DNA of 59,326 nt from a virus, in IMG/VR virus record IMGVR_UViG_3300025133_000114, positions 1 to 59,326 of that record; one strand, written 5' to 3'. Each line of letters begins with the position of its first letter. Positions within the stretch are counted from its first letter, which is position 1. The notes below the pieces were generated by a model. The model had not been told where the DNA came from and ran no database searches. It worked only from the letters and a program-made list of their open reading frames with translations. Shown here one piece after another: positions 13,197 through 58,771 of this stretch. The position numbers and the translations under genes were made by a program.

Positions 13197-14048
13197 ATGG
13201 CTAGAAATAATGGAGATCGCTTAGGCGTTCCGACTACGCAAGTGTCCGGCGCTCCGATCAGTGAAGCTCCACCCAATCCGGCAATGGCATTTGCCACGCC
13301 GACGACCTTCGTGGAGTTACCTTCCAAGGGAACTCTTTATCCGGAGGGTCATCCTCTTTTTGGGCGTGAGCAGATAGAAATCCGTTTTATGACGGCAAAA
13401 GAAGAGGATATCTTAACTTCGGAGGCGCTTCTCAAGAAAGGCATTGCGATTGACAGAATGGTCCAGAGTGTTATTCTTGATCCGAGAGTCAAAGTTGAAG
13501 AGCTTGCCGTTGGTGACAAGAATGCTATTATTGTTGCTGCCCGTATCAGTGGATACGGAAAGGAATATGAAGTTGGCGTAAATTGTCCCAATTGTGGCTC
13601 TAGAACGGACTATTCTTTCGACCTTGAAAAGGCAAAGATCCACGATGGGCAAGATCATAGCGACTTTGATGTCGAGAAGACGGAGGGTGGAACTTTTGTT
13701 ATCACTACCCCGGCTTTGAAGGCTCAAGTAGAGATGCGCCCGATGTACGGCATTGACGAAAAGTACCTGACACAGCTTGCAGCTAATAGGAAAGCCAAAA
13801 AGCTTCCTTCTACGACCACAACCGACCAGTTACGTCGCCTTGTGGTCTCGGTGAACGGCAACACAGACTCGGCATATAGGGAATCATTTATAAGTAATGC
13901 TACCGCTATAGACACGAGATACCTTCGTCAGGCATATCGTCAAATTATGCCAAATATTGACCTAACACAAGAGTTTTTGTGTTCTTCCTGCGGTGTAGGG
14001 TCCGAAATGGCGGTGCCCTTGACAGCCAAATTTTTTTGGGCTCAGTGA
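13197..14048 (+). CDS. T4 gp26-like protein, probable tail-assembly chaperone (unshifted form)
   Basis: This 283-residue protein has a conserved VELPSKGTLYPEGHPL segment followed by a region with TAKEEDIL, and a zinc ribbon made of CPNCG (near residue 125) and CSSCG (near residue 265). These are features of the gp26-like family I know from T4-like phages. It sits between the tube and tape-measure genes, the position of tail-assembly chaperones. The frame ends about ten codons after the second Cys pair at ...FFWAQ. A downstream coding stretch in another frame has no start codon and is probably reached by ribosomal frameshifting on a T7 run (14031-14037), giving a longer product. Chaperone role is inference. 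Confidence 0.7.
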   Translation: MARNNGDRLGVPTTQVSGAPISEAPPNPAMAFATPTTFVELPSKGTLYPEGHPLFGREQIEIRFMTAKEEDILTSEALLKKGIAIDRMVQSVILDPRVKVEELAVGDKNAIIVAARISGYGKEYEVGVNCPNCGSRTDYSFDLEKAKIHDGQDHSDFDVEKTEGGTFVITTPALKAQVEMRPMYGIDEKYLTQLAANRKAKKLPSTTTTDQLRRLVVSVNGNTDSAYRESFISNATAIDTRYLRQAYRQIMPNIDLTQEFLCSSCGVGSEMAVPLTAKFFWAQ

Positions 14049-14253
14049 ACAATATATAGAGAGCGTATATGAGCAGTTTTTCCTGCTTAAGTATCATGGT
14101 GGGTGGAGCTTCTACGAGGCTTACAATCTCCCCGTTCAGATTCGCTATTGGTTCTTGAAAAGACTAGAAAAACAACTTAAATCTGAACAAGAACAGATGG
14201 AAAAAGCTAGGGATAAAGGAAAAGGTGGTGGGAGACCTCCACCCCCAAGGTAA
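14023..14253 (+). CDS. Frameshift extension of the tail-assembly chaperone, no start codon of its own
   Basis: This frame opens after a TGA at 14020-14022 and runs to TAA at 14251. It encodes GLSEQYIESVYEQFFLLKYH, then GGWSFYEAYNLP and a basic helix, a well-formed protein segment, but contains no ATG, GTG or TTG before the TTG late in the segment. The overlapping 13197 gene runs through AAATTTTTTTGGG (14028-14040) in the adjacent frame. A tRNA-Phe on TTT can re-pair perfectly after a +1 or a -2 slip, and either move enters this frame, adding about 71 residues. Tail-chaperone G/GT-type frameshifts (-1, -2 or +1) are known in many tailed phages. A homopolymer sequencing error is the alternative. 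Confidence 0.7.
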   Translation, partial: QPNFFGLSEQYIESVYEQFFLLKYHGGWSFYEAYNLPVQIRYWFLKRLEKQLKSEQEQMEKARDKGKGGGRPPPPR

Positions 14254-14332: not shown

Positions 14333-14677
14333 ATGTTAAACGAAGATAAACTGGATAATCTTGTTATAGATTTTGCCGAAATAAGAGAGAAAAAGCTTAA
14401 CGAATCATTTTTGGCAGCATTTGGTAATTGGGTCAAGCTTATCCTCAATAGAACTTTTGGTCAAGGGAAAGGCTCTTCTGGTCCCTATGTCTCCGTGAAG
14501 GGAACCCCGACAGAGATTAAGGCGTTCGCTCAAGCACTCGGCAACGAGAAGAGGTATATCGAGGCTATCAGGAAACATGGTCTCGACGACCCTCGTGTTA
14601 CGTCGAACAAAGCGAGGCTCAAAAAGGCTGTTTCGTCTTTTGAGAGGTCGACCGGCATTAAGTGGCCGTTTAAATAG
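14333..14677 (+). CDS. Conserved late protein between tail chaperone and tape measure
   Basis: This 114-residue protein of unknown function starts MLNEDKLDNLVIDFAEIREK. A conserved-looking middle section reads YVSVKGTPTEIKAFAQALGN followed by EKRYIEAIRKHGLDDPR. It ends in FERSTGIKWPFK. I have seen the same architecture in other T4-like aquatic phages but know no role. The first 25 residues are helical and end with L-N-E, which could be a prohead-protease type site. It is preceded by its own late box and is followed after 11 nt by the tape measure gene. Confidence 0.65.
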   Translation: MLNEDKLDNLVIDFAEIREKKLNESFLAAFGNWVKLILNRTFGQGKGSSGPYVSVKGTPTEIKAFAQALGNEKRYIEAIRKHGLDDPRVTSNKARLKKAVSSFERSTGIKWPFK

Positions 14678-14688
14678 GAAACTTATAA

Positions 14689-17055
14689 ATGGCACCAAGA
14701 GAAACCAAAGAAGAAAAACTTAGAAGGGAATCCGAGCAAGCCACAGCCGCAGTCACAAGACTAAGCGATGCCGTTGAGGGCTTGAGAGAACGCACAGCGG
14801 GTTCCGCCGAGGAGCTTTCCCAGTTCATTGACGCGGAACTCGACGCAGCAAAAGCTGCTTTGGCTCTTTCCAAGCAACTCAATGATACTGCTGGAATTAT
14901 AGAGCACACCGAACATATAAGGAAACTCAGTAGAGAGAGTGAAGCGTATGCAGAGGCTGCCAAGAAAGCTGAAGACAGGGCGAAGGCGTTTGCTAGTGCA
15001 GGCGAAGACTTAGGGCAAGAGTTAGCGGGCTTGATTCCAATAATCGGCGGTAACGTTGATTATATGGACACATTCGGCGGCAAGCTTGCCATGGCTTCTG
15101 CTAACGCAGGAGGGTTTGTAGACGGGCTTGGTGATGTAGCAGGCGGTTTCGCGGCTATGTTCAACCCCACCCAGTTGGCTACAAACATGCTCAGCTTTGC
15201 TACCGAAGGGGTGATGGCATGGGTTGGCTCAGCCGTTGAAATGAGCATGGCTACGCAGGCAGCTACAGCAAACTTCAATAGAGCCACCGGTATGATGGGT
15301 CAATACAACGGCGCTATGATGGGTGCGTTTCGTTCGACTACACAAGCTGGTGCTTCTTATGAAGACGCGGCAGAATCATTCGAGACGCTTATTCTCACAA
15401 CTTCTAGATTTACAGATATGGTACCAGCGCAACAGCAAGCTTTAGCTGAGACTTCTTTGGTATTGGATAATCTGGGTATTGATTTGTCGACAAGCGCAGC
15501 AAATCTACATATTATGACCACAAGTCTTAATATGACAGCCGGCGAAGCAGAAACTACTTCGAGAAGGCTCGTTTCAGCCGCACATGCTATGGGTGTTGCC
15601 CCAGCCGAGATGGCGGCTGATTTCGCGTCAGCAGGTGCCCAATTCGCATCCTTTGGGGACCAGGCAGTCGATGCTTTCATCGACCTTAAGGAGGTCGCCA
15701 AGAAAACCGGAATTGAGTTGCAAGGTCTTTTAAGTATTACTGAAAAGTTCACAACGTTCGAGGGTGCAGCAGACCACGTTGGCAAGCTTAACGCTCTTCT
15801 TGGCGGCTCTTTCCTCAACACCGTTGATATGGTCACCCTTAGCCTGGAAGATCCAGCAGCAGCCATGCAGGAAGTTAGAAATGCTGTTCTTGATGCAGGC
15901 TTATCGTTTGAATCCATGAATCCGGCAATGCGCCGAGCAGTTGCTTCCGCTGCCGGTCTTGAAGATGCTGGTCAACTTGCGGCTCTTATGAGCGGCGAGC
16001 TAGATGGTCTCGGGAGTGCGTCAAGCGCAACCGCTGATCAGCTTGAGGACCTCAAAGAAGCTACAAAATTTACTCAAACTCTGTCTGATGAACTGGAGGC
16101 TACGAGGTTGGCATTCACAGCCAATTTTAGTCCTATTATCGAAGGTATTATTATTCCGGTGTTGGACAAACTTCAGGGACTTGCTTCGTTCTTAAATGAC
16201 ACATTTCACCCAAACGCTGCGGCTTTTATTTCTCTGGCAGGGTTTATGCTGATGGGGAAATTGGCTTTCTGGCAGTTATCAAAAGCGATTGCCACCACGA
16301 CGGCTCCCATCACCGCCCTCACCGGTGAGATGGCAGCCCTTAATGGCACCTTGGGCAGCTTGGCTCTCGAAGCCGTTCCAGCATCCGGCGGAATAAAAAC
16401 AGTTGGCACAGCAGCAGCCACAGCAGGCACTGGCTTGATGAGCATGGCATTGGCTGTTCTGGCGATTGGGGCTGGTATTGGAATAGCAGCAGCAGGACTG
16501 GCTTTGTTCGTATACTCCTTCTCATTTTTGACTGGTGATCAACTGTTTTATGCAGCCGTAGGGCTCGTCGCCTTGGCGGCTGGTTTTGCAGTGCTGATAG
16601 GGACAATGATGTTCTTTGCACAGCCTCTTGGCGCTGCTGCCGTCGCCGGTCTGCTTGCTGTTGGTGGTGCCGTGGCACTGATAGGTATAGGTATCGCAGC
16701 GGCTGCTGCTGGGATGGCGCTCCTTGTAGCATCCATCGGTACTCTGGCGGCAACTGCTGAAGATTTTGCGATGATCGGCGAAGCATTCGAGAATTTGAGT
16801 ATTCCAAAAATGATTGTGTACACGACCGCGATGACTGCTACCGCTATGGCTGGGATGACACCCGCTGGCGTCGTTGTCGCTGCGATGGCGGGTGCTGCTG
16901 GAGGAGGCGGTGGTGCTGCAACCACCGCCGCTGCAACCAAAGTTGAAGTTAAGATAAACGGCAGTTTAAGAAAACTGTTCAAGGTGTTGGACAAGCGATA
17001 TGTGCAAGGCAAGAGTGTAGCCCCTGGCAAAATTTCAAATAACCAATATCAATAG
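14689..17055 (+). CDS. Tail tape measure protein
   Basis: This 788-residue protein has the usual tape-measure layout. The N-terminal third (about 1-110) is a charged coiled coil. A helical middle part rich in Ala, Met, Ser and Thr follows. Several long hydrophobic segments lie between about residues 510 and 690 (for example MALAVLAIGAGIGIAAAGLA). The end is a Gly/Ala stretch and a short basic C-terminus. Tape measure proteins set tail length and may help DNA cross the inner membrane. T4 gp29 has 590 residues; the greater length here predicts a longer tail. The preceding chaperone and following baseplate genes fit. Confidence 0.85.
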   Translation: MAPRETKEEKLRRESEQATAAVTRLSDAVEGLRERTAGSAEELSQFIDAELDAAKAALALSKQLNDTAGIIEHTEHIRKLSRESEAYAEAAKKAEDRAKAFASAGEDLGQELAGLIPIIGGNVDYMDTFGGKLAMASANAGGFVDGLGDVAGGFAAMFNPTQLATNMLSFATEGVMAWVGSAVEMSMATQAATANFNRATGMMGQYNGAMMGAFRSTTQAGASYEDAAESFETLILTTSRFTDMVPAQQQALAETSLVLDNLGIDLSTSAANLHIMTTSLNMTAGEAETTSRRLVSAAHAMGVAPAEMAADFASAGAQFASFGDQAVDAFIDLKEVAKKTGIELQGLLSITEKFTTFEGAADHVGKLNALLGGSFLNTVDMVTLSLEDPAAAMQEVRNAVLDAGLSFESMNPAMRRAVASAAGLEDAGQLAALMSGELDGLGSASSATADQLEDLKEATKFTQTLSDELEATRLAFTANFSPIIEGIIIPVLDKLQGLASFLNDTFHPNAAAFISLAGFMLMGKLAFWQLSKAIATTTAPITALTGEMAALNGTLGSLALEAVPASGGIKTVGTAAATAGTGLMSMALAVLAIGAGIGIAAAGLALFVYSFSFLTGDQLFYAAVGLVALAAGFAVLIGTMMFFAQPLGAAAVAGLLAVGGAVALIGIGIAAAAAGMALLVASIGTLAATAEDFAMIGEAFENLSIPKMIVYTTAMTATAMAGMTPAGVVVAAMAGAAGGGGGAATTAAATKVEVKINGSLRKLFKVLDKRYVQGKSVAPGKISNNQYQ

Positions 17056-22311: not shown

Positions 22312-23496
22312 ATGCTTTTTCAGACATTAGACAATAAGCAAGAGTGCATCGGAGTCTACAGGGATGGAACACTATTATTTGGCGAGGACGGGATATCTGA
22401 CGGATTCAGTGGTTCCCGTACATGGACATACGCAGCCTACCTGGAAGGACACGAAGTTGAATATGCTTATCTGTACTGTGGGCGTAGTTTGGACGATATT
22501 TGTCCTGATGTTCTTCGGGCTGACTGGGAGTTCATAAATAAGAAATTGCAGGCTTACCTGCGCTCCCTCATTGAGGCTAAGATATCTCTAGATGATGTAT
22601 GTTTCTTTGATCTTGTGCCAGAAAAGTTCCTTATTGATTATTGCTACATGAAAGATCAAATTTGTAATTTTGTCTTCGATAACTTTGAGAAGCCAGATAA
22701 CTATGATTATCTCGTGAGTACGACAAAGCTGATTCATAAGATGGGTCTCCAGAGACTAAACTTAAACTGGTCCAACCTTCGCAACCAGATGCACAGGGAA
22801 TCTGTCCGTGACCAAGTTCGGAAACTCAAGAGTGTTGAGCCGTTCTGTAAGTACAACATATTCGGCACCAAAACCGGCAGGCTGACAACGAGGAAAAACA
22901 GCTTCCCTATCCTGACCCTCGCCAAGGAGATGCGACCAGTGATACAACCAAAAAACGACTTTTACACTAGTTTCGACTTCAATGGAGCAGAACTGAGAAC
23001 GTTGCTTGCTCTGGGAGGCTCTGAGCAGCCCTTACAGGACGTTCACGAGTGGAACCGGGTCAATGTATACCGTAATTTCGGGACACGAGAAGAGGCTAAA
23101 AAACGGCTTTTTTCTTGGCTCTATAATCCAGATTCAAACGACTTTTTATCGGCACGCTTCTATGACAGGGAAAGTTTGGTCGAAAAGCACTGGAACGGCA
23201 CACATGTGAGCACCCCGTATGGGCGGCACATTGAGGTCGACAGGCGCAAGGCTTTAAATTACCTGATCCAGAGTACAACCTCTGATATGGTGCTCGAACA
23301 GGCAGCAAAGTTGGATAATTTTCTTGAAGGCTATAAAACTCGGATTGCCTTCGTCATTCATGACGAGGTGGTCTTGGACGTGGACAAGAGTGAGGCTCAC
23401 CTTTTGCCTCAGCTAGAAGAGATCTTTGCCGATACACGATTTGGAATTTTTCTTATCGGCTCGAAAGAAGGTTCCGATTACGGCGTTGCAGCCTAA
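22312..23496 (+). CDS. Short family-A DNA polymerase, no exonuclease domain visible
   Basis: This 394-residue protein has the polymerase core of family A (Pol I-like). Motif A is SFDFNGAELRTLLAL near residue 221, with Asp-Phe-Asn in place of the usual Asp-Tyr-Ser. The O-helix region is TREEAKKRLFSWLYN, keeping the Lys and a Tyr-Asn in place of Tyr-Gly. A later block reads NYLIQSTTSDMVLEQAA, and motif C is VIHDEVVLD near residue 350. The N-terminal 180 residues do not show exonuclease motifs, and the protein is far shorter than T7 gp5 (704) or Pol I. It could be a repair, priming or auxiliary polymerase, because a full DnaE is also present. It starts the replication block. Confidence 0.8.
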   Translation: MLFQTLDNKQECIGVYRDGTLLFGEDGISDGFSGSRTWTYAAYLEGHEVEYAYLYCGRSLDDICPDVLRADWEFINKKLQAYLRSLIEAKISLDDVCFFDLVPEKFLIDYCYMKDQICNFVFDNFEKPDNYDYLVSTTKLIHKMGLQRLNLNWSNLRNQMHRESVRDQVRKLKSVEPFCKYNIFGTKTGRLTTRKNSFPILTLAKEMRPVIQPKNDFYTSFDFNGAELRTLLALGGSEQPLQDVHEWNRVNVYRNFGTREEAKKRLFSWLYNPDSNDFLSARFYDRESLVEKHWNGTHVSTPYGRHIEVDRRKALNYLIQSTTSDMVLEQAAKLDNFLEGYKTRIAFVIHDEVVLDVDKSEAHLLPQLEEIFADTRFGIFLIGSKEGSDYGVAA

Positions 23497-36547: not shown

Positions 36548-37407
36548 CTGGGATCATCCCCGTCGCGGGACAAATGCTCGACTTCCGGATGGAGTGGGCA
36601 GATTGTCTTATGCCACTCGCACCCAATTATACTGCGGTTGAGAGGTCAGTGGTGGAGTGCGCATATGCTGGCTGTGAAACTATCTGGATTGTCGCCAACG
36701 ATGATATGGCTCCTCTCCTCCGACATCGAATTGGAGAATACGTGCAAGATCCGGTGATGTTCGGGAGCCAGCCGGGTCGCAATTCTTCCCTCGCACAGAA
36801 GAGAATCCCTATTTTCTATGTCCCACTTGCCATTAAGGATCACGGTAAGCGGGATTGTTTAGCGTGGTCGGTGGTCCACGGTTCACTGGCGGCATTTCGT
36901 ATCGGCTCCAACCTTTCTAAATGGGCGGCTCCTAATAGATATTATGTGTCCTTTCCTTTCGGAGCTTATAACCCAGAGGTCGTTCGAGCGCATCGTAAGA
37001 TAATTTCAAGCCTAACTCCTTTTGCTCTGTCTCATGAAGACAAAACCGTTGCAGATGGTGGGTACTTGGGCTTTACGTTCGGGAAAGAAGATTTTCTTGA
37101 ATTCCGTCGAGAGATTAGGAAGGGTACGGGCATGTATAGTGCAGAAAACCTGAAGGATGGCAAATATCCCACGACCAAACTACCACTTGAAAAAAGATAT
37201 TCGGCACGCTATTTTGACCTTGCAAAAGTTTTCAGGCACGTTATATTAGAAGAGATAAAGGAAGTTCCTTGGTATTATGCCATAGACAACTGGGACGGGT
37301 ATTGTAACTTTCTAGGCTCGCCAGATAGGCACAAGCTTGAACGTCCACCAAACTATATATTGAACTATAGAGAATGGAATCTCGTGGGGGAAGATGATGA
37401 AAAATAA
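36520..37407 (+). CDS. Nucleotidyltransferase/GT-A-like conserved phage protein (putative)
   Basis: This 295-residue protein begins TYFHLAGIIPVAGQMLDFRM, then ERSVVECAYAGCETIWIVAN DDMAPLL, which resembles the start of sugar-phosphate nucleotidyltransferases and other GT-A folds: glycine-rich NTP loop, then a helix and an Asp-Asp strand end. The classical G-x-G-T-R-L loop is not present, so the activity is uncertain. I recall similar proteins in aquatic T4-like phages annotated as hypothetical. It is nested between the Rossmann-like gene and dnaE, overlapping both. Together the two could make or modify a sugar nucleotide, for DNA or surface decoration; this is inference. Confidence 0.45.
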   Translation: MPANTYFHLAGIIPVAGQMLDFRMEWADCLMPLAPNYTAVERSVVECAYAGCETIWIVANDDMAPLLRHRIGEYVQDPVMFGSQPGRNSSLAQKRIPIFYVPLAIKDHGKRDCLAWSVVHGSLAAFRIGSNLSKWAAPNRYYVSFPFGAYNPEVVRAHRKIISSLTPFALSHEDKTVADGGYLGFTFGKEDFLEFRREIRKGTGMYSAENLKDGKYPTTKLPLEKRYSARYFDLAKVFRHVILEEIKEVPWYYAIDNWDGYCNFLGSPDRHKLERPPNYILNYREWNLVGEDDEK

Positions 37408-40400
37408 CGATGAACGCATTCCTTTTGTTGGCTTACACGCACATAGCGTGGCAGGCTCTATCTTTGATGCGATTGGCTATCCGCAACAGCATATGGACTA
37501 TGCGTATGCAAATGGGTCAAAGGCTTTGGCACTGACTGATCACGGCAACATGAATGGGCTTGCCCATCAAGTCTTGCACGCAAAGAAGATGCAGGGTGAG
37601 GGGAAAGAGTTTAAGCCCATTTTTGGGATCGAGGCGTATTTTATTCCTTCGACCAAGGATTGGAAGGGTGAGTATGACCGCGTAAAGACAGAGAAAAAGC
37701 TCAAGAAGGAGAGCGCCAAGGGCGCAATGGTCGAGGATGAAGCAGCTTCTAAGAAGGCTGTCAAGAGCCTACTTAACCGTCGTCGACACCTCATCTTGTT
37801 AGCCCAGAACCAAAAGGGCTTGAACAATTTGTTCAAGATTGTTTCAGAGAGCTACAAGGGCGACCACTATTACCGTTACCCTCGTGTCGACTATGATTTG
37901 CTTTCACGTTATTCCGAGGGCGTCATAGCCGCATCAGCCTGTCTTGGAGGGGTGTATGCGGGGGATTACTGGGAGAATCGGGATGAGGGACCAGAAGCCG
38001 TCCTGAGCGCCATGCGGACCACGACGCAAAGAATGATTAGTATCTTTGGCAAGCGGTGGTATGGAGAACTTCAGTGGAACAACATTCCTGAACAGCACAA
38101 ATTGAACCAGCATATTATTGAAATGCATAAAGAGTTTGGTATTAAGCTGATTTCGACAGCAGATAGCCATTATCCTGGTCCTGATGCCTGGAAAGATAGA
38201 GAGCTATACAAGCGTTTGGGATGGCTGGGCAAACGTCCTGAGTATTTATCCGAGGAACTCCCAAACGAGGAAGACTTGAAGTGCGAACTGTATCCGAAGA
38301 ATGGCGAACAGATGTGGGAGTCTTATCACCGGTACAGTAAACTTCAAGGGGCTGAATATGACGACGATCTCGTTATGGAGTCCCTGAAGGAAACTCATAA
38401 GATTGCTTTTGAACTCATTGAAGACTTCATGCCAGATAACAAGGTGCGTCTCCCTGACTTTGTTGTTCCAGAGGGCGCTACTGCCACACAAGCGTTAGCT
38501 CGTTTGAGCATCGATGCGCTTCGTACAATGGGACTGCACACCGATGAAGAGTATATCGAGAGGCTTAAGGCTGAACTCTATACGATTGATGACCGAGGCT
38601 TCTCAAAATACTTTCTAACTATGAAAGCCATTGTGGATCGAGCCAATAAACTAATGCTCACTGGTCCGGGTCGAGGTTCCGCCGCAGGCTCTTTGGTGGC
38701 TTATGTACTGGGCATCACACAGATCGACCCACTGAAGTACGGGCTTCAGTTTGCTCGGTTCCTTCGAGCGGACGCCACAGACTACCCTGACATCGACTAC
38801 GACGTGGCAGAGCCCATGAGACTGAAGGAGGCTCTGATTGAGGAATGGGGAGACGATACGGTCGTGCCTATCTCTAACTGGAACACCTTGCAGCTTAGAA
38901 GCCTTGTGAAAGATATTTCTAAGTTTTACAACATTCCGTTTTTGGAAGTGAATAAGGTCACCGGAGCTATGATTAGCGAAGCGACCGCACCAGCAAAGAA
39001 AGCTCATGGCATCAAGGCTGGTCTATATGTCCCTACCTTCAAAGAGGTGATGGAATACAGCCCAACTTTGAGAGAGTTCTTGCAGCAGTATCCCCACGTC
39101 AAGACCCACATCGAGGCGCTCCATGGTCAGGTTCGTTCGTGTTCCCGACATGCTGGCGGCGTAGTGATTGCGGAGAACTTAGACCAGTACATGCCGCTTA
39201 TTAACAGCGGCGGCGTTCGGCAAACCCCATGGAGCGAGGGGCAGAACGTGCGCCACCTGGAGCCAATGGGATTTATTAAGTTTGATTTACTGGGGCTCTC
39301 CACTCTTCGTATGATCGAGGGTGCGATTAGGCATATCTTGCGTCGTCACAAGGGCATTGAGGAGCCAACATTCAAAGATGTGAAGCAGTATTATGATGAC
39401 AACTTACACCCCGATGTTATCCGCTTGGACGATCAGCAGGTTTATGAAAACATCTTTCAGAAAGGTAAGTGGGCTGGAATCTTCCAGTTCGCCGAGGATG
39501 GGGCGCAGAATTTGTGCATGATGGCTAAGCCAACAAGCATTATTGACATTGCTGCTGTCACCAGCATCTTCCGACCGGGACCGTTGTCGGCAAAGGTTGA
39601 TCGAAATTATGTCGAGGCGAAGTCGAACCCTCAATACATCCAGTATCCCAACGAGGATTACAGAGAAGTCACTGAAGAAACTTATGGATTCCTAATCTTT
39701 CAGGAGCAGATTTCGGCTCTGGCACACCGCTTGGGCAAGGACTTATCTTTGGATGAAGGTAATATGCTCCGAAAGGTGCTCACGAAGAAGGGGACTGGTA
39801 AGGCAGCTAAAGTTAAGAAGGCGCTCTATACTAAGTTCGTTGACGGATGCACAGAGAAGGGGATGACAACCAGACAGGCGAACGCCTTGTGGGAGAAGTT
39901 TGAGTATTTTTCAGGCTATGGCTTCAATAAGTCACATGCTATTTCCTATTCGATGCTCTCCTTCCAGTGTGCTTGGTTGTTGAACTACTATCCCGAATGT
40001 TGGATGGCTGCGTTTTTGGACAAAGAACCCGAGACTCGTAAGGCTAAGGCTATCACAATAGCCAAGAAGTACGGGTTTAAAATTGCCAAGCTTAATATCA
40101 ACACATCAGGTAACGTTTGGGAAATTTCAGACGATGGCGAGACCCTCATACAGCCTCTGACGGCAATCAAGGGGTTAGGGGAAGCCGCGATTAAGCAGGT
40201 ATTAGACAACCGTCCGTTCGCAAATGTTGAAGAGTTTTTATTCAACGAGAACATAACTTACAGCAAACTGAACAAGAGAGCACTGGATGTGCTTATCCGT
40301 AGCTCCGCGCTTGACCCGTTAAGGGATGAGAGATTCACAGGTGCAAAGCACTTTTGGTCTGCTATCGCGGTGGATAGACCAAGAAAGTTGAAGAATCTTG

Positions 40401-40813
40401 AGCAGAACATTATAACTTATGCACCTGAAGGTGATTTCACCGAGGAAGAAGAGATACAGTTTCTTATTGACCTCACAGGGGAATTTCCTATGGACCGCGT
40501 GATGAGCGATGGCATAAGGGGCAGGCTCGAAAAGATGTGTGTCCCCCCTATCAGCAGGTTTGATAGAGACTTGATGGTGGTGTGGTTTATCCCGAGAAAG
40601 CTTATTAAAAAGAAGACGAGGACGGGAAAAGATTACTGGATCATAGAGGTTACAGATGAGCATAACACAGCTACCAGCATTCGGTGCTGGGGCGTCGACC
40701 CGAAGAGAGATGATGTTGCACTGAACCGCCCCTACATGGCACGCCTCGATTACAGCGAGCAGTGGGGGTTTAGTACACGTTCTTTGCATCGAAGTTTCAA
40801 GGTTCTGGGATAA
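37394..40813 (+). CDS. dnaE: DNA polymerase III alpha subunit (DnaE type)
   Basis: This 1139-residue replicative polymerase starts with a PHP domain (FVGLHAHSVAGSIFDAIGYP, later LALTDHGNMNGL), whose His/Asp pattern looks intact. The family-C palm has GPGRGSAAGSLVAYVLGIT near residues 423-441 and YPDIDYDVAEP near 464-474 with the two catalytic Asp. A helix-hairpin-helix-like segment (ITAIKGLGEAAIKQVLDN) lies near 920, and a C-terminal OB-type region (KKTRTGKDYWIIEVTDEHN) near 1070. Length is like bacterial DnaE (about 1160). T4-like phages normally use a family-B polymerase (gp43), so this is a marked departure. It overlaps the preceding gene by 14 nt. Confidence 0.93.
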   Translation: MMKNNDERIPFVGLHAHSVAGSIFDAIGYPQQHMDYAYANGSKALALTDHGNMNGLAHQVLHAKKMQGEGKEFKPIFGIEAYFIPSTKDWKGEYDRVKTEKKLKKESAKGAMVEDEAASKKAVKSLLNRRRHLILLAQNQKGLNNLFKIVSESYKGDHYYRYPRVDYDLLSRYSEGVIAASACLGGVYAGDYWENRDEGPEAVLSAMRTTTQRMISIFGKRWYGELQWNNIPEQHKLNQHIIEMHKEFGIKLISTADSHYPGPDAWKDRELYKRLGWLGKRPEYLSEELPNEEDLKCELYPKNGEQMWESYHRYSKLQGAEYDDDLVMESLKETHKIAFELIEDFMPDNKVRLPDFVVPEGATATQALARLSIDALRTMGLHTDEEYIERLKAELYTIDDRGFSKYFLTMKAIVDRANKLMLTGPGRGSAAGSLVAYVLGITQIDPLKYGLQFARFLRADATDYPDIDYDVAEPMRLKEALIEEWGDDTVVPISNWNTLQLRSLVKDISKFYNIPFLEVNKVTGAMISEATAPAKKAHGIKAGLYVPTFKEVMEYSPTLREFLQQYPHVKTHIEALHGQVRSCSRHAGGVVIAENLDQYMPLINSGGVRQTPWSEGQNVRHLEPMGFIKFDLLGLSTLRMIEGAIRHILRRHKGIEEPTFKDVKQYYDDNLHPDVIRLDDQQVYENIFQKGKWAGIFQFAEDGAQNLCMMAKPTSIIDIAAVTSIFRPGPLSAKVDRNYVEAKSNPQYIQYPNEDYREVTEETYGFLIFQEQISALAHRLGKDLSLDEGNMLRKVLTKKGTGKAAKVKKALYTKFVDGCTEKGMTTRQANALWEKFEYFSGYGFNKSHAISYSMLSFQCAWLLNYYPECWMAAFLDKEPETRKAKAITIAKKYGFKIAKLNINTSGNVWEISDDGETLIQPLTAIKGLGEAAIKQVLDNRPFANVEEFLFNENITYSKLNKRALDVLIRSSALDPLRDERFTGAKHFWSAIAVDRPRKLKNLEQNIITYAPEGDFTEEEEIQFLIDLTGEFPMDRVMSDGIRGRLEKMCVPPISRFDRDLMVVWFIPRKLIKKKTRTGKDYWIIEVTDEHNTATSIRCWGVDPKRDDVALNRPYMARLDYSEQWGFSTRSLHRSFKVLG

Positions 40814-48698: not shown

Positions 48699-50246
48699 AT
48701 GAAGTATTATGATTCAGGTATGGCGCTTCGACAGAAGATTCTGTCCGGCATTGATGTTTTGACCGACAATGTGGCATCCACACTTGGACCGAGGGGTCGT
48801 AACGTAATTTTACAAGGAGCCGAGGGTAACCCTATCATCACCAAAGATGGTGTCACCGTTGCCAATTTTGTTGAACTGGACGACCCATTCGAAAACGCGG
48901 GAGTTCAGGTTATTAAGCAGGCTGCGGCTCGGACAAACTCGATGGCAGGTGATGGGACTACGACGGCTACTGTTTTGGCTCGTGCTATTTATAAAAATGC
49001 ACAAAGCCATATCCAAGTCGGCTGCTCGCCTATCGTTCTTAAGCGCGAGATCGATGAGGCAGTTGAACAGGTCGTCAACAGCTTGGAATCTTTGTCGCGC
49101 CCCATCGAGAGTGAGGATGATATCCTCCACATTGCGACCATCTCCGCGAACAACGATGAAAAGATCGGGAAACTCGTGGCGATGGCTATCAGCAGTGCCG
49201 GTAAGGATGGTTCCATCACGGTCGAGGAGGCTCGTTCCATTGAAACTTCGCTCGACTTGGTTGAAGGCTTCAGGTTTGATGGTGGATATGTCTCCCCATC
49301 ATTTATAAATAATGAACGCCGTGGTGCCGTTGTCTATGATGAGCCGCTCATTCTGGTAACAGATGAGAAGATCGAGAATGTCCAAAACATCCTTCCGGTG
49401 CTCGAACAGGTCGCTCGCGAAGCACGCCCATTTGTAATTGTTGGGTCGGAATTTGAAGGTCAGGGTTTGGCTGCTCTGATCATGAACGCTATTCGAGGAT
49501 CGATGAGGATTGCTGCGGTTAAGGCTCCTCGCTATGGTGAGGAGCGGAAGAACATTCTTAAAGACCTGGCTCTGTCGGTGGGTGCCACTTTTATTTCGCG
49601 TGAAACGGGAATTCGCCTCAAAGAAGCTCGCCTTGAGCACTTGGGGACATCTCGTAAGGTTGATATACTTAAGGGAGGTACGACTATCATCGGAGGCAAA
49701 GGCGATTCCGAAGAGGTTGTGAAGAGGATGGACGCACTCCGGGTCGAACTTCAACAAACAGATTCGCTATATGAGTGCGAAAGAATCCAAGACCGTATTA
49801 GTCGCTTGAATAGTGGTGTGGCTGTTATTCGGGTCGGAGCAGCAACTGAGATTGAAATGGTCGAGAAGCGACACCGTATCGAGGACGCGCTGGAGGCAGT
49901 CAAGTCAGCCCAACAAGAGGGTATTTTGGCAGGCGGTGGGGTGTCTTTGGTGCGTGCATCTCAGAAACTTACTCTAAAAACGAAAGGCGCTCATATTGTT
50001 CGGGAAGCAATTCTTGAGCCGGTACGCCAAATGGCTAGAAACGCTGGAGATAGCCCAGATGTGGTCGTTGAGAAAATCCTCAAAGGAAGGGGTTCTAAGG
50101 GGTGGGATTTTACTAAGGGTAGAATGACAGATATGTTCGCAGAAGGCGTTGTAGACCCCTGTAAGGTGACAAGATGTGCCCTTCAGAACGCTGCTTCTGC
50201 TGCTTCGACCCTGATAACCACCAATCACGCTATTGTGCAAAGATAG
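48699..50246 (+). CDS. groL: GroEL chaperonin
   Basis: This 515-residue chaperonin has GPRGRNVILQGAEGNPIITK, the ATP-binding GDGTTTATVLARAI near residue 84, the apical FDGGYVSPSFINN, and LNSGVAVIRVGAATEIEM near 376 with the next AGGGVSLVRA. The C-terminal Gly-Gly-Met tail of bacterial GroEL is missing and the protein is about 30 residues shorter, as in other phage chaperonins. It could fold the phage capsid, with the GroES-like protein at 33349 or the host GroES. It starts directly after the Mom-like stop, behind GAGAGAGG. A sigma-70-like promoter follows for the next operon. Confidence 0.95.
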   Translation: MKYYDSGMALRQKILSGIDVLTDNVASTLGPRGRNVILQGAEGNPIITKDGVTVANFVELDDPFENAGVQVIKQAAARTNSMAGDGTTTATVLARAIYKNAQSHIQVGCSPIVLKREIDEAVEQVVNSLESLSRPIESEDDILHIATISANNDEKIGKLVAMAISSAGKDGSITVEEARSIETSLDLVEGFRFDGGYVSPSFINNERRGAVVYDEPLILVTDEKIENVQNILPVLEQVAREARPFVIVGSEFEGQGLAALIMNAIRGSMRIAAVKAPRYGEERKNILKDLALSVGATFISRETGIRLKEARLEHLGTSRKVDILKGGTTIIGGKGDSEEVVKRMDALRVELQQTDSLYECERIQDRISRLNSGVAVIRVGAATEIEMVEKRHRIEDALEAVKSAQQEGILAGGGVSLVRASQKLTLKTKGAHIVREAILEPVRQMARNAGDSPDVVVEKILKGRGSKGWDFTKGRMTDMFAEGVVDPCKVTRCALQNAASAASTLITTNHAIVQR

Positions 50247-58608: not shown

Positions 58609-58690
58609 GGCTGAGTGGTGGAATTGGTATACACACAAGACTTAAAATCTTGCGCCCATGGGATTGAGGGTTCGAGTCCCTCCTCAGCTA
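58609..58690 (+). tRNA. tRNA-Leu (anticodon UAA)
   Basis: An 82-nt class II tRNA. The acceptor GGCTGAG pairs with CTCAGCT (G1-U72 wobble plus six normal pairs), discriminator A. The anticodon stem CAAGA/TCTTG encloses loop CTTAAAA with anticodon TAA. The variable arm and the T arm GAGGG-TTCGAGT-CCCTC are in place. CCA is not encoded. Confidence 0.93.
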
Positions 58691-58697
58691 CTTTTTC

Positions 58698-58771
58698 GCT
58701 CCCATCGTCTAGTCAGGTCAGGACACCGGGTTTTCATCCCGGCAACACGGGTTCGAATCCCGTTGGGAGTA
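58698..58771 (+). tRNA. tRNA-Glu (anticodon UUC)
   Basis: A 74-nt tRNA, 7 nt after tRNA-Leu. The acceptor GCTCCCA pairs with TGGGAGT (again G1-U72 wobble), discriminator A. The anticodon arm CCGGG-TTTTCAT-CCCGG gives anticodon TTC. The T arm is ACGGG-TTCGAAT-CCCGT. CCA is not encoded. Confidence 0.93.

Follow-up and report, generated by a model that had tools for sequence, protein, structure and literature searches.

A probable +1 programmed frameshift in the tail assembly chaperone gene of a group of T4-related phages

In phage lambda, a short and an extended tail assembly chaperone (gpG and gpGT) are made from one gene that lies just before the tape measure gene (PMC5009743). Tailed phages show −1, −2 and +1 shifts in such genes, with T4 being an exception (general review), and among the phages that use −2 and +1, HSTV-2 has been described as 'very likely +1' (PMC5009743). 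For the T4-like phages, two reports (PMC10885494 and PMC12846349), citing Vladimirov, Gautam and Davidson (2022), give gp26 and gp51 as the tail assembly chaperones, and the latter (PMC12846349) also describes poly-T −1 signals in T4-like chaperone genes. Since T4-type chaperones and −1 poly-T shifts have both been described already, the kind of system reported here is known. A preliminary description of the locus, which proposed a +1 or −2 shift, knew of no such case in this T4-like group; −1 shifts have been described there, and for the +1 direction we likewise found no description in a literature covered incompletely, and the +1 clade looks undescribed.

Here, we analysed a window of 59,326 nucleotides (the whole stretch of DNA, positions 1 to 59,326 of the IMG/VR virus record IMGVR_UViG_3300025133_000114), in which one locus is very probably, judging from its sequence and that of its relatives, the tail assembly chaperone pair of a T4-related myovirus encoded as one gene with +1 programmed frameshifting. 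All features of the locus are on the plus strand. The short chaperone (TAC-N, T4 gp26 family; 13197 to 14048), assigned by Pfam and PHROG, has 283 amino acids and ends in KFFWAQ, and its last codons are AAA TTT TTT TGG GCT CAG TGA. The +1 frame is open over 14023 to 14253, and the −1 frame hits a stop at 14059, which bears out the earlier statement that a −1 shift leads to an early stop. Since a TGA at 14020 to 14022 closes the second frame upstream, any shift is confined to 14023 to 14048. The predicted slip site, TTT_TTT_TGG (14031 to 14039), has TTT in the P site and TGG as the next codon, which a +1 shift would replace by GGG; it is marked by an invariant slip codon and a preceding base that is never T. 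The gp51-like second-frame domain (14038 to 14253; 71 amino acids starting GLSEQYIESV) is predicted to be made only as a C-terminal extension of the short form, and translation across the shift (13197 to 14036 joined to 14038 to 14253) gives a predicted long form (TAC-NC; 13197 to 14253) of 351 amino acids.

This arrangement has the traits of a G/GT-type gene, namely, a short ORF overlapped by a start-less ORF in another frame and a conserved slippery sequence at the overlap, and it sits between the tube gene and the tape measure position. Sheath and tube genes (tube, phrog_4542) precede the chaperone gene, and downstream there is an ORF of 114 amino acids (14333 to 14677) followed by a candidate tape measure gene of 788 amino acids (14689 to 17055), neither of which has a family match in Pfam or PHROG. 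The preliminary placement just before the tape measure gene holds by position, and both Flavobacterium phage immuto and Listeria phage LIS04 have an annotated tape measure gene in the equivalent location; however, in the window the 114-amino-acid ORF intervenes, and the 788-amino-acid ORF is a tape measure gene by position only.

The second frame carries a clear coding signal. Between the window and its nearest relatives, the differences fall mostly at the third positions of this frame, and the comparison with the relative L005 counted 14 at the third position, 2 at the first and 1 at the second, with 1 amino acid change over 44 codons. When viral contigs were searched for the second-frame domain, 80 relatives were recovered, each of which carries it in +1 relation to a gp26-type gene, with TTT TTT TGG or TTC TTT TGG at the junction, even though the first protein is commonly just 37 to 50% identical. 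The third-position bias and the 80/80 conservation corroborate the proposal of a start-less coding stretch running to 14253 past the gene end at 14048, and the alignment of relatives suggested earlier found both frames and the site kept throughout. The two parts were related by the +1 frame in 82/82 loci analysed.

In a wider sample of about 360 classified loci, obtained by adding three scans that used distant members, one that used a huge-phage member and one that used the cyanophage form, 258 loci had the +1 relation. TTT TTT TGG was found in 187, TTT CTT TGG in 38, TTC TTT TGG in 24 and TTT CTA TGG in 4, and the remaining five site types were seen in one locus each: TTT CTA TTC (huge phage LR756508), TTT CTT TAC, TTT TTT CAC (Bacillus phage SP-15), TTT TTT AGT (LIS04) and TTC TTT CGT (Streptococcus phage GXN1). 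All sampled site types contain UUU followed by a pyrimidine, so that tRNA-Phe could move +1 onto UUU or UUC; in LIS04, good +1 re-pairing is offered from the first TTT only. The isolated phages with the +1 relation include immuto, Microcystis phage Mel-JY01, SP-15, LIS04 and GXN1, and the +1 group appears to be a large, mostly uncultured set of T4-like viruses of bacteria. The short form had no match in the bacterial genomes searched. The second domain with the same +1 site was found in two metagenome-assembled genomes (L368 and L369, binned as Actinomycetes and WOR-3), possibly as phage contigs in the bins or as proviruses.

The slip site itself is under selection. Of 208 dereplicated sequences, 37 have CTT or CTA in the P site; in the others, the Phe codon there was TTT in 171/171. 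At other Phe positions, TTC made up 24%, and the base preceding TTT TTT in the +1 loci was T in 0/154, with 76 expected from codon usage; these and the other slip-site counts are raw and ignore kinship. The count of changes on the 208-sequence tree, which alone allows for shared descent, gave 0 TTT/TTC changes at the slip codon compared to 17 to 34 in other conserved Phe columns. The second frame, once entered, does not read the third position of the slip codon, and overlapping coding therefore offers no explanation for its invariance. Asp codons preceding TTT TTT in the +1 loci were GAC in 88/88, and the base preceding the run in the −1 loci described below was T in 74/74. With no T before TTT TTT, the −1 heptamer T_TTT_TTT is removed in the +1 loci. 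These data demonstrate two kinds of selection in the +1 group, one preserving the slip codon and one acting against the −1 heptamer.

The comparative data strongly support the proposed programmed frameshift in a tail assembly chaperone gene, which would be a +1 shift. The preliminary description left open a −2 shift, which would place one extra Phe in the fusion, as in phage Mu. Perfect −2 re-pairing is permitted by TTT TTT TGG, the window included, but there is no good re-pairing in TTC TTT TGG (24 loci), TTT CTA TGG (4 loci) or TTC TTT CGT, where the frame relation is unchanged. This favors +1, and we regard −2 as very unlikely.

A Shine-Dalgarno-like element lies upstream of the slip site, as GGAGGTG in most relatives and as the variant GGCGGTG (14009 to 14015) in the window, 15 nucleotides from the T-run; in the +1 loci, this distance is 15 and sometimes about 20 to 24 nucleotides. 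An element of −8 kcal/mol or lower within 30 nucleotides was present in 94% of window-type loci, compared to a background of 4.4%, and the Glu codon within it had a GAG:GAA ratio of 110:3 against a background of about 1:2. The synonymous selection on the element is strong. In the −1 lineages, the corresponding peak is 8 to 10 nucleotides upstream of the site, which is the classical place. To our knowledge, the spacing in the +1 group (15 to 24 nucleotides) is longer than in the prfB and dnaX cases and fits no known stimulator. No conserved downstream RNA structure was found (RNAalifold gave 0 pairs for 36 sequences; mean z about −0.5), and the frequency of UGG in the window, 12 per 1,000 codons, is not particularly low.

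Such an element could also point to the second domain being a separate protein, made from an internal start in the first gene or by re-initiation. The annotation of cyanophage gp51 as separate is in line with this, as are the relatives L270 and L274 on the immuto branch, where the second domain has a clear ATG of its own after the first stop. An ordinary start codon for the second frame had been named in advance as the finding that would speak against a frameshift, and it was present in these two loci only, which are exactly those that have lost the slippery site; they are a natural escape from frameshifting. In the window, by contrast, ATG, GTG and TTG are absent from the +1 frame ahead of the conserved domain and in its first part, there is no start codon ahead of the domain in the window's own subclade and none conserved elsewhere, and no second-frame start codon lies at initiation spacing from the Shine-Dalgarno-like element of the +1 group. 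Moreover, T4 gp51 is one long protein that is co-linear with the fusion, and a separate protein would leave the synonymous freezing of the slip codon unexplained. We find separate synthesis quite improbable, more so than a −2 shift.

The frames could also be fused without a ribosomal shift if RNA polymerase slipped on the seven T's to yield some mRNAs with six U's. The window and most of its relatives have seven T's, but E. coli-type transcriptional slippage usually requires longer runs, and the runs are interrupted in many relatives (TTCTTTTGG, TTTCTTTGG and TTTCTATGG) with an unchanged frame relation, which argues against slippage and makes it very improbable as the source of the long form. 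Homopolymers are prone to sequencing errors, and a true run of six T's would make the gene a direct fusion; this reading was rejected and has next to no probability, since seven T's are found again in metagenomes of independent origin, and the frame relation is shared by about 250 loci from separate assemblies and from isolated phages, several of them with interrupted runs or no long T-run.

The two domains stand in a −1 relation instead in cyanophages, Vibrio phage R11Z, Sinorhizobium phage phiM7, Pseudomonas phage pf16 and a group of huge phages. Their sites are T_TTT_TTC (72 dereplicated sequences) or T_TTT_TTT (2; phiM7 and pf16). These phages resemble the +1 group in having the two domains in the same order with an overlap at a Phe-Phe site, and they differ in the −1 frame, in a heptamer that the +1 group avoids and in the closer Shine-Dalgarno-like element. 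The fused +1 and −1 profiles aligned over 279 columns, with the second domain included (hhalign E 2.9e-14, 98.2%), and the tree demands at least two switches of shift direction, without fixing which direction came first.

The −1 fusion profile in turn matched T4 gp51 along its length (columns 7 to 246; hhalign E 1.3e-11), and T4 gp26 matched its first part (hhalign E 1.6e-13). The direct match between the +1 fusion and gp51 was weak (probability 33%, E 4e-4), and the likeness of the second domain to the C-terminal part of gp51 is established via an indirect chain from the +1 fusion to the −1 fusion to gp51. Since gp51 aligns to the whole fusion and gp26 to its first part, T4 devotes two genes, one short and one long, to what other phages would achieve by a shift: gp26 is the homologous short form and gp51, co-linear with the fusion, the long form. 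By the model, both chaperones would be needed in T4 as in the +1 group, but T4 encodes them in two separate genes and the +1 group in one gene with a frameshift. One homologous chaperone gene has thus found three solutions, a −1 shift, a +1 shift and two genes (T4), with a few members using a separate start, and with these natural variants a change in shift direction can be tested directly.

The short form belongs to T4_baseplate (PF12322; Pfam E 7e-15) and matches PHROG 150, 'baseplate hub' (E 1e-18). Of 28 members of the second domain, 27 match DUF6760, a Pfam family of unknown function, with a best E of 6e-5, and DUF6760 was absent from 14 control genomes; the link may give that family a role as a tail chaperone. 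The short form, modelled with AlphaFold2, and the second domain were folded apart. The short-form model had a pLDDT of 87, and the HK97 tail assembly chaperone 2ob9 was its top row in VIA-align (Z 5.9, under the tool's caution level; rmsd 5.5, 88 aligned; next 4.5). In Foldseek against the PDB, 2ob9 also had the best probability, 0.47, yet with an E of 0.98, and a PDB sequence search with the short-form profile gave nothing credible. The modelled likeness to the HK97 chaperone is a hint and not proof. The second domain was predicted to be helical with modest confidence.

That shifting occurs, and with what efficiency, we infer from these comparisons. The majority of ribosomes would terminate at 14048 and release the short form, and in the others the P-site tRNA-Phe would re-pair +1 on UUU_Y, which works in nearly all sites; the predicted transframe peptide, ...TAKFFGLSEQYIESVYEQ..., has two Phe residues. 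On the model of lambda gpG/gpGT, and by homology, coating of the tape measure protein would fall to the short form, and the long form would bring in tube subunits through its tail. Lambda shifts −1, whereas the +1 group would shift +1, and the proteins are not detectably related by sequence.

The closest parallel to the slip itself is influenza A PA-X (UCC_UUU_CGU; PMC3498833), in which tRNA-Phe in the P site likewise slips +1 from UUU to UUY; GXN1 even has the same UUU_CGU. PA-X differs in the eukaryotic ribosome, in being an unrelated gene and in the A-site codon, which is mostly UGG in the phages. The phages would hence provide a bacterial example of a UUU_Y +1 slip otherwise known from PA-X. 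The E. coli prfB (RF2) site CUU_UGA is similar to the immuto-type sites, where CUU_UGG is preceded at a short distance by a run rich in G, but the phage +1 site is not autoregulatory. It is possible, though we would put it somewhat below even chances, that these sites constitute a new class of bacterial +1 signal, in which UUU_U (or UUU_C) is followed by a sense codon, the preceding base blocks −1 and a Shine-Dalgarno-like element 15 to 24 nucleotides upstream helps at a spacing outside that of prfB and dnaX, with the direction at one homologous site having switched between −1 and +1 in evolution.

The findings also put right the records of many phages that overlook the second domain or list it as a hypothetical protein in its own right. 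In Mel-JY01 (L082, 3734 to 3970), immuto (L083, 3833 to 3943) and SP-15 (L085, 3755 to 3874), it is entered as a hypothetical protein that is separate or truncated, and these annotations miss the frameshift. Elsewhere in the window, we noted two separate DNA polymerase-like genes (22312 to 23496 and 37394 to 40813; a partial phrog_17 match and phrog_405, respectively), a GroEL-like chaperonin gene (48699 to 50246; phrog_5725, E 1e-142) and, near the window end, a tRNA-Leu(taa) and a tRNA-Glu(ttc) gene at 58609 to 58771.
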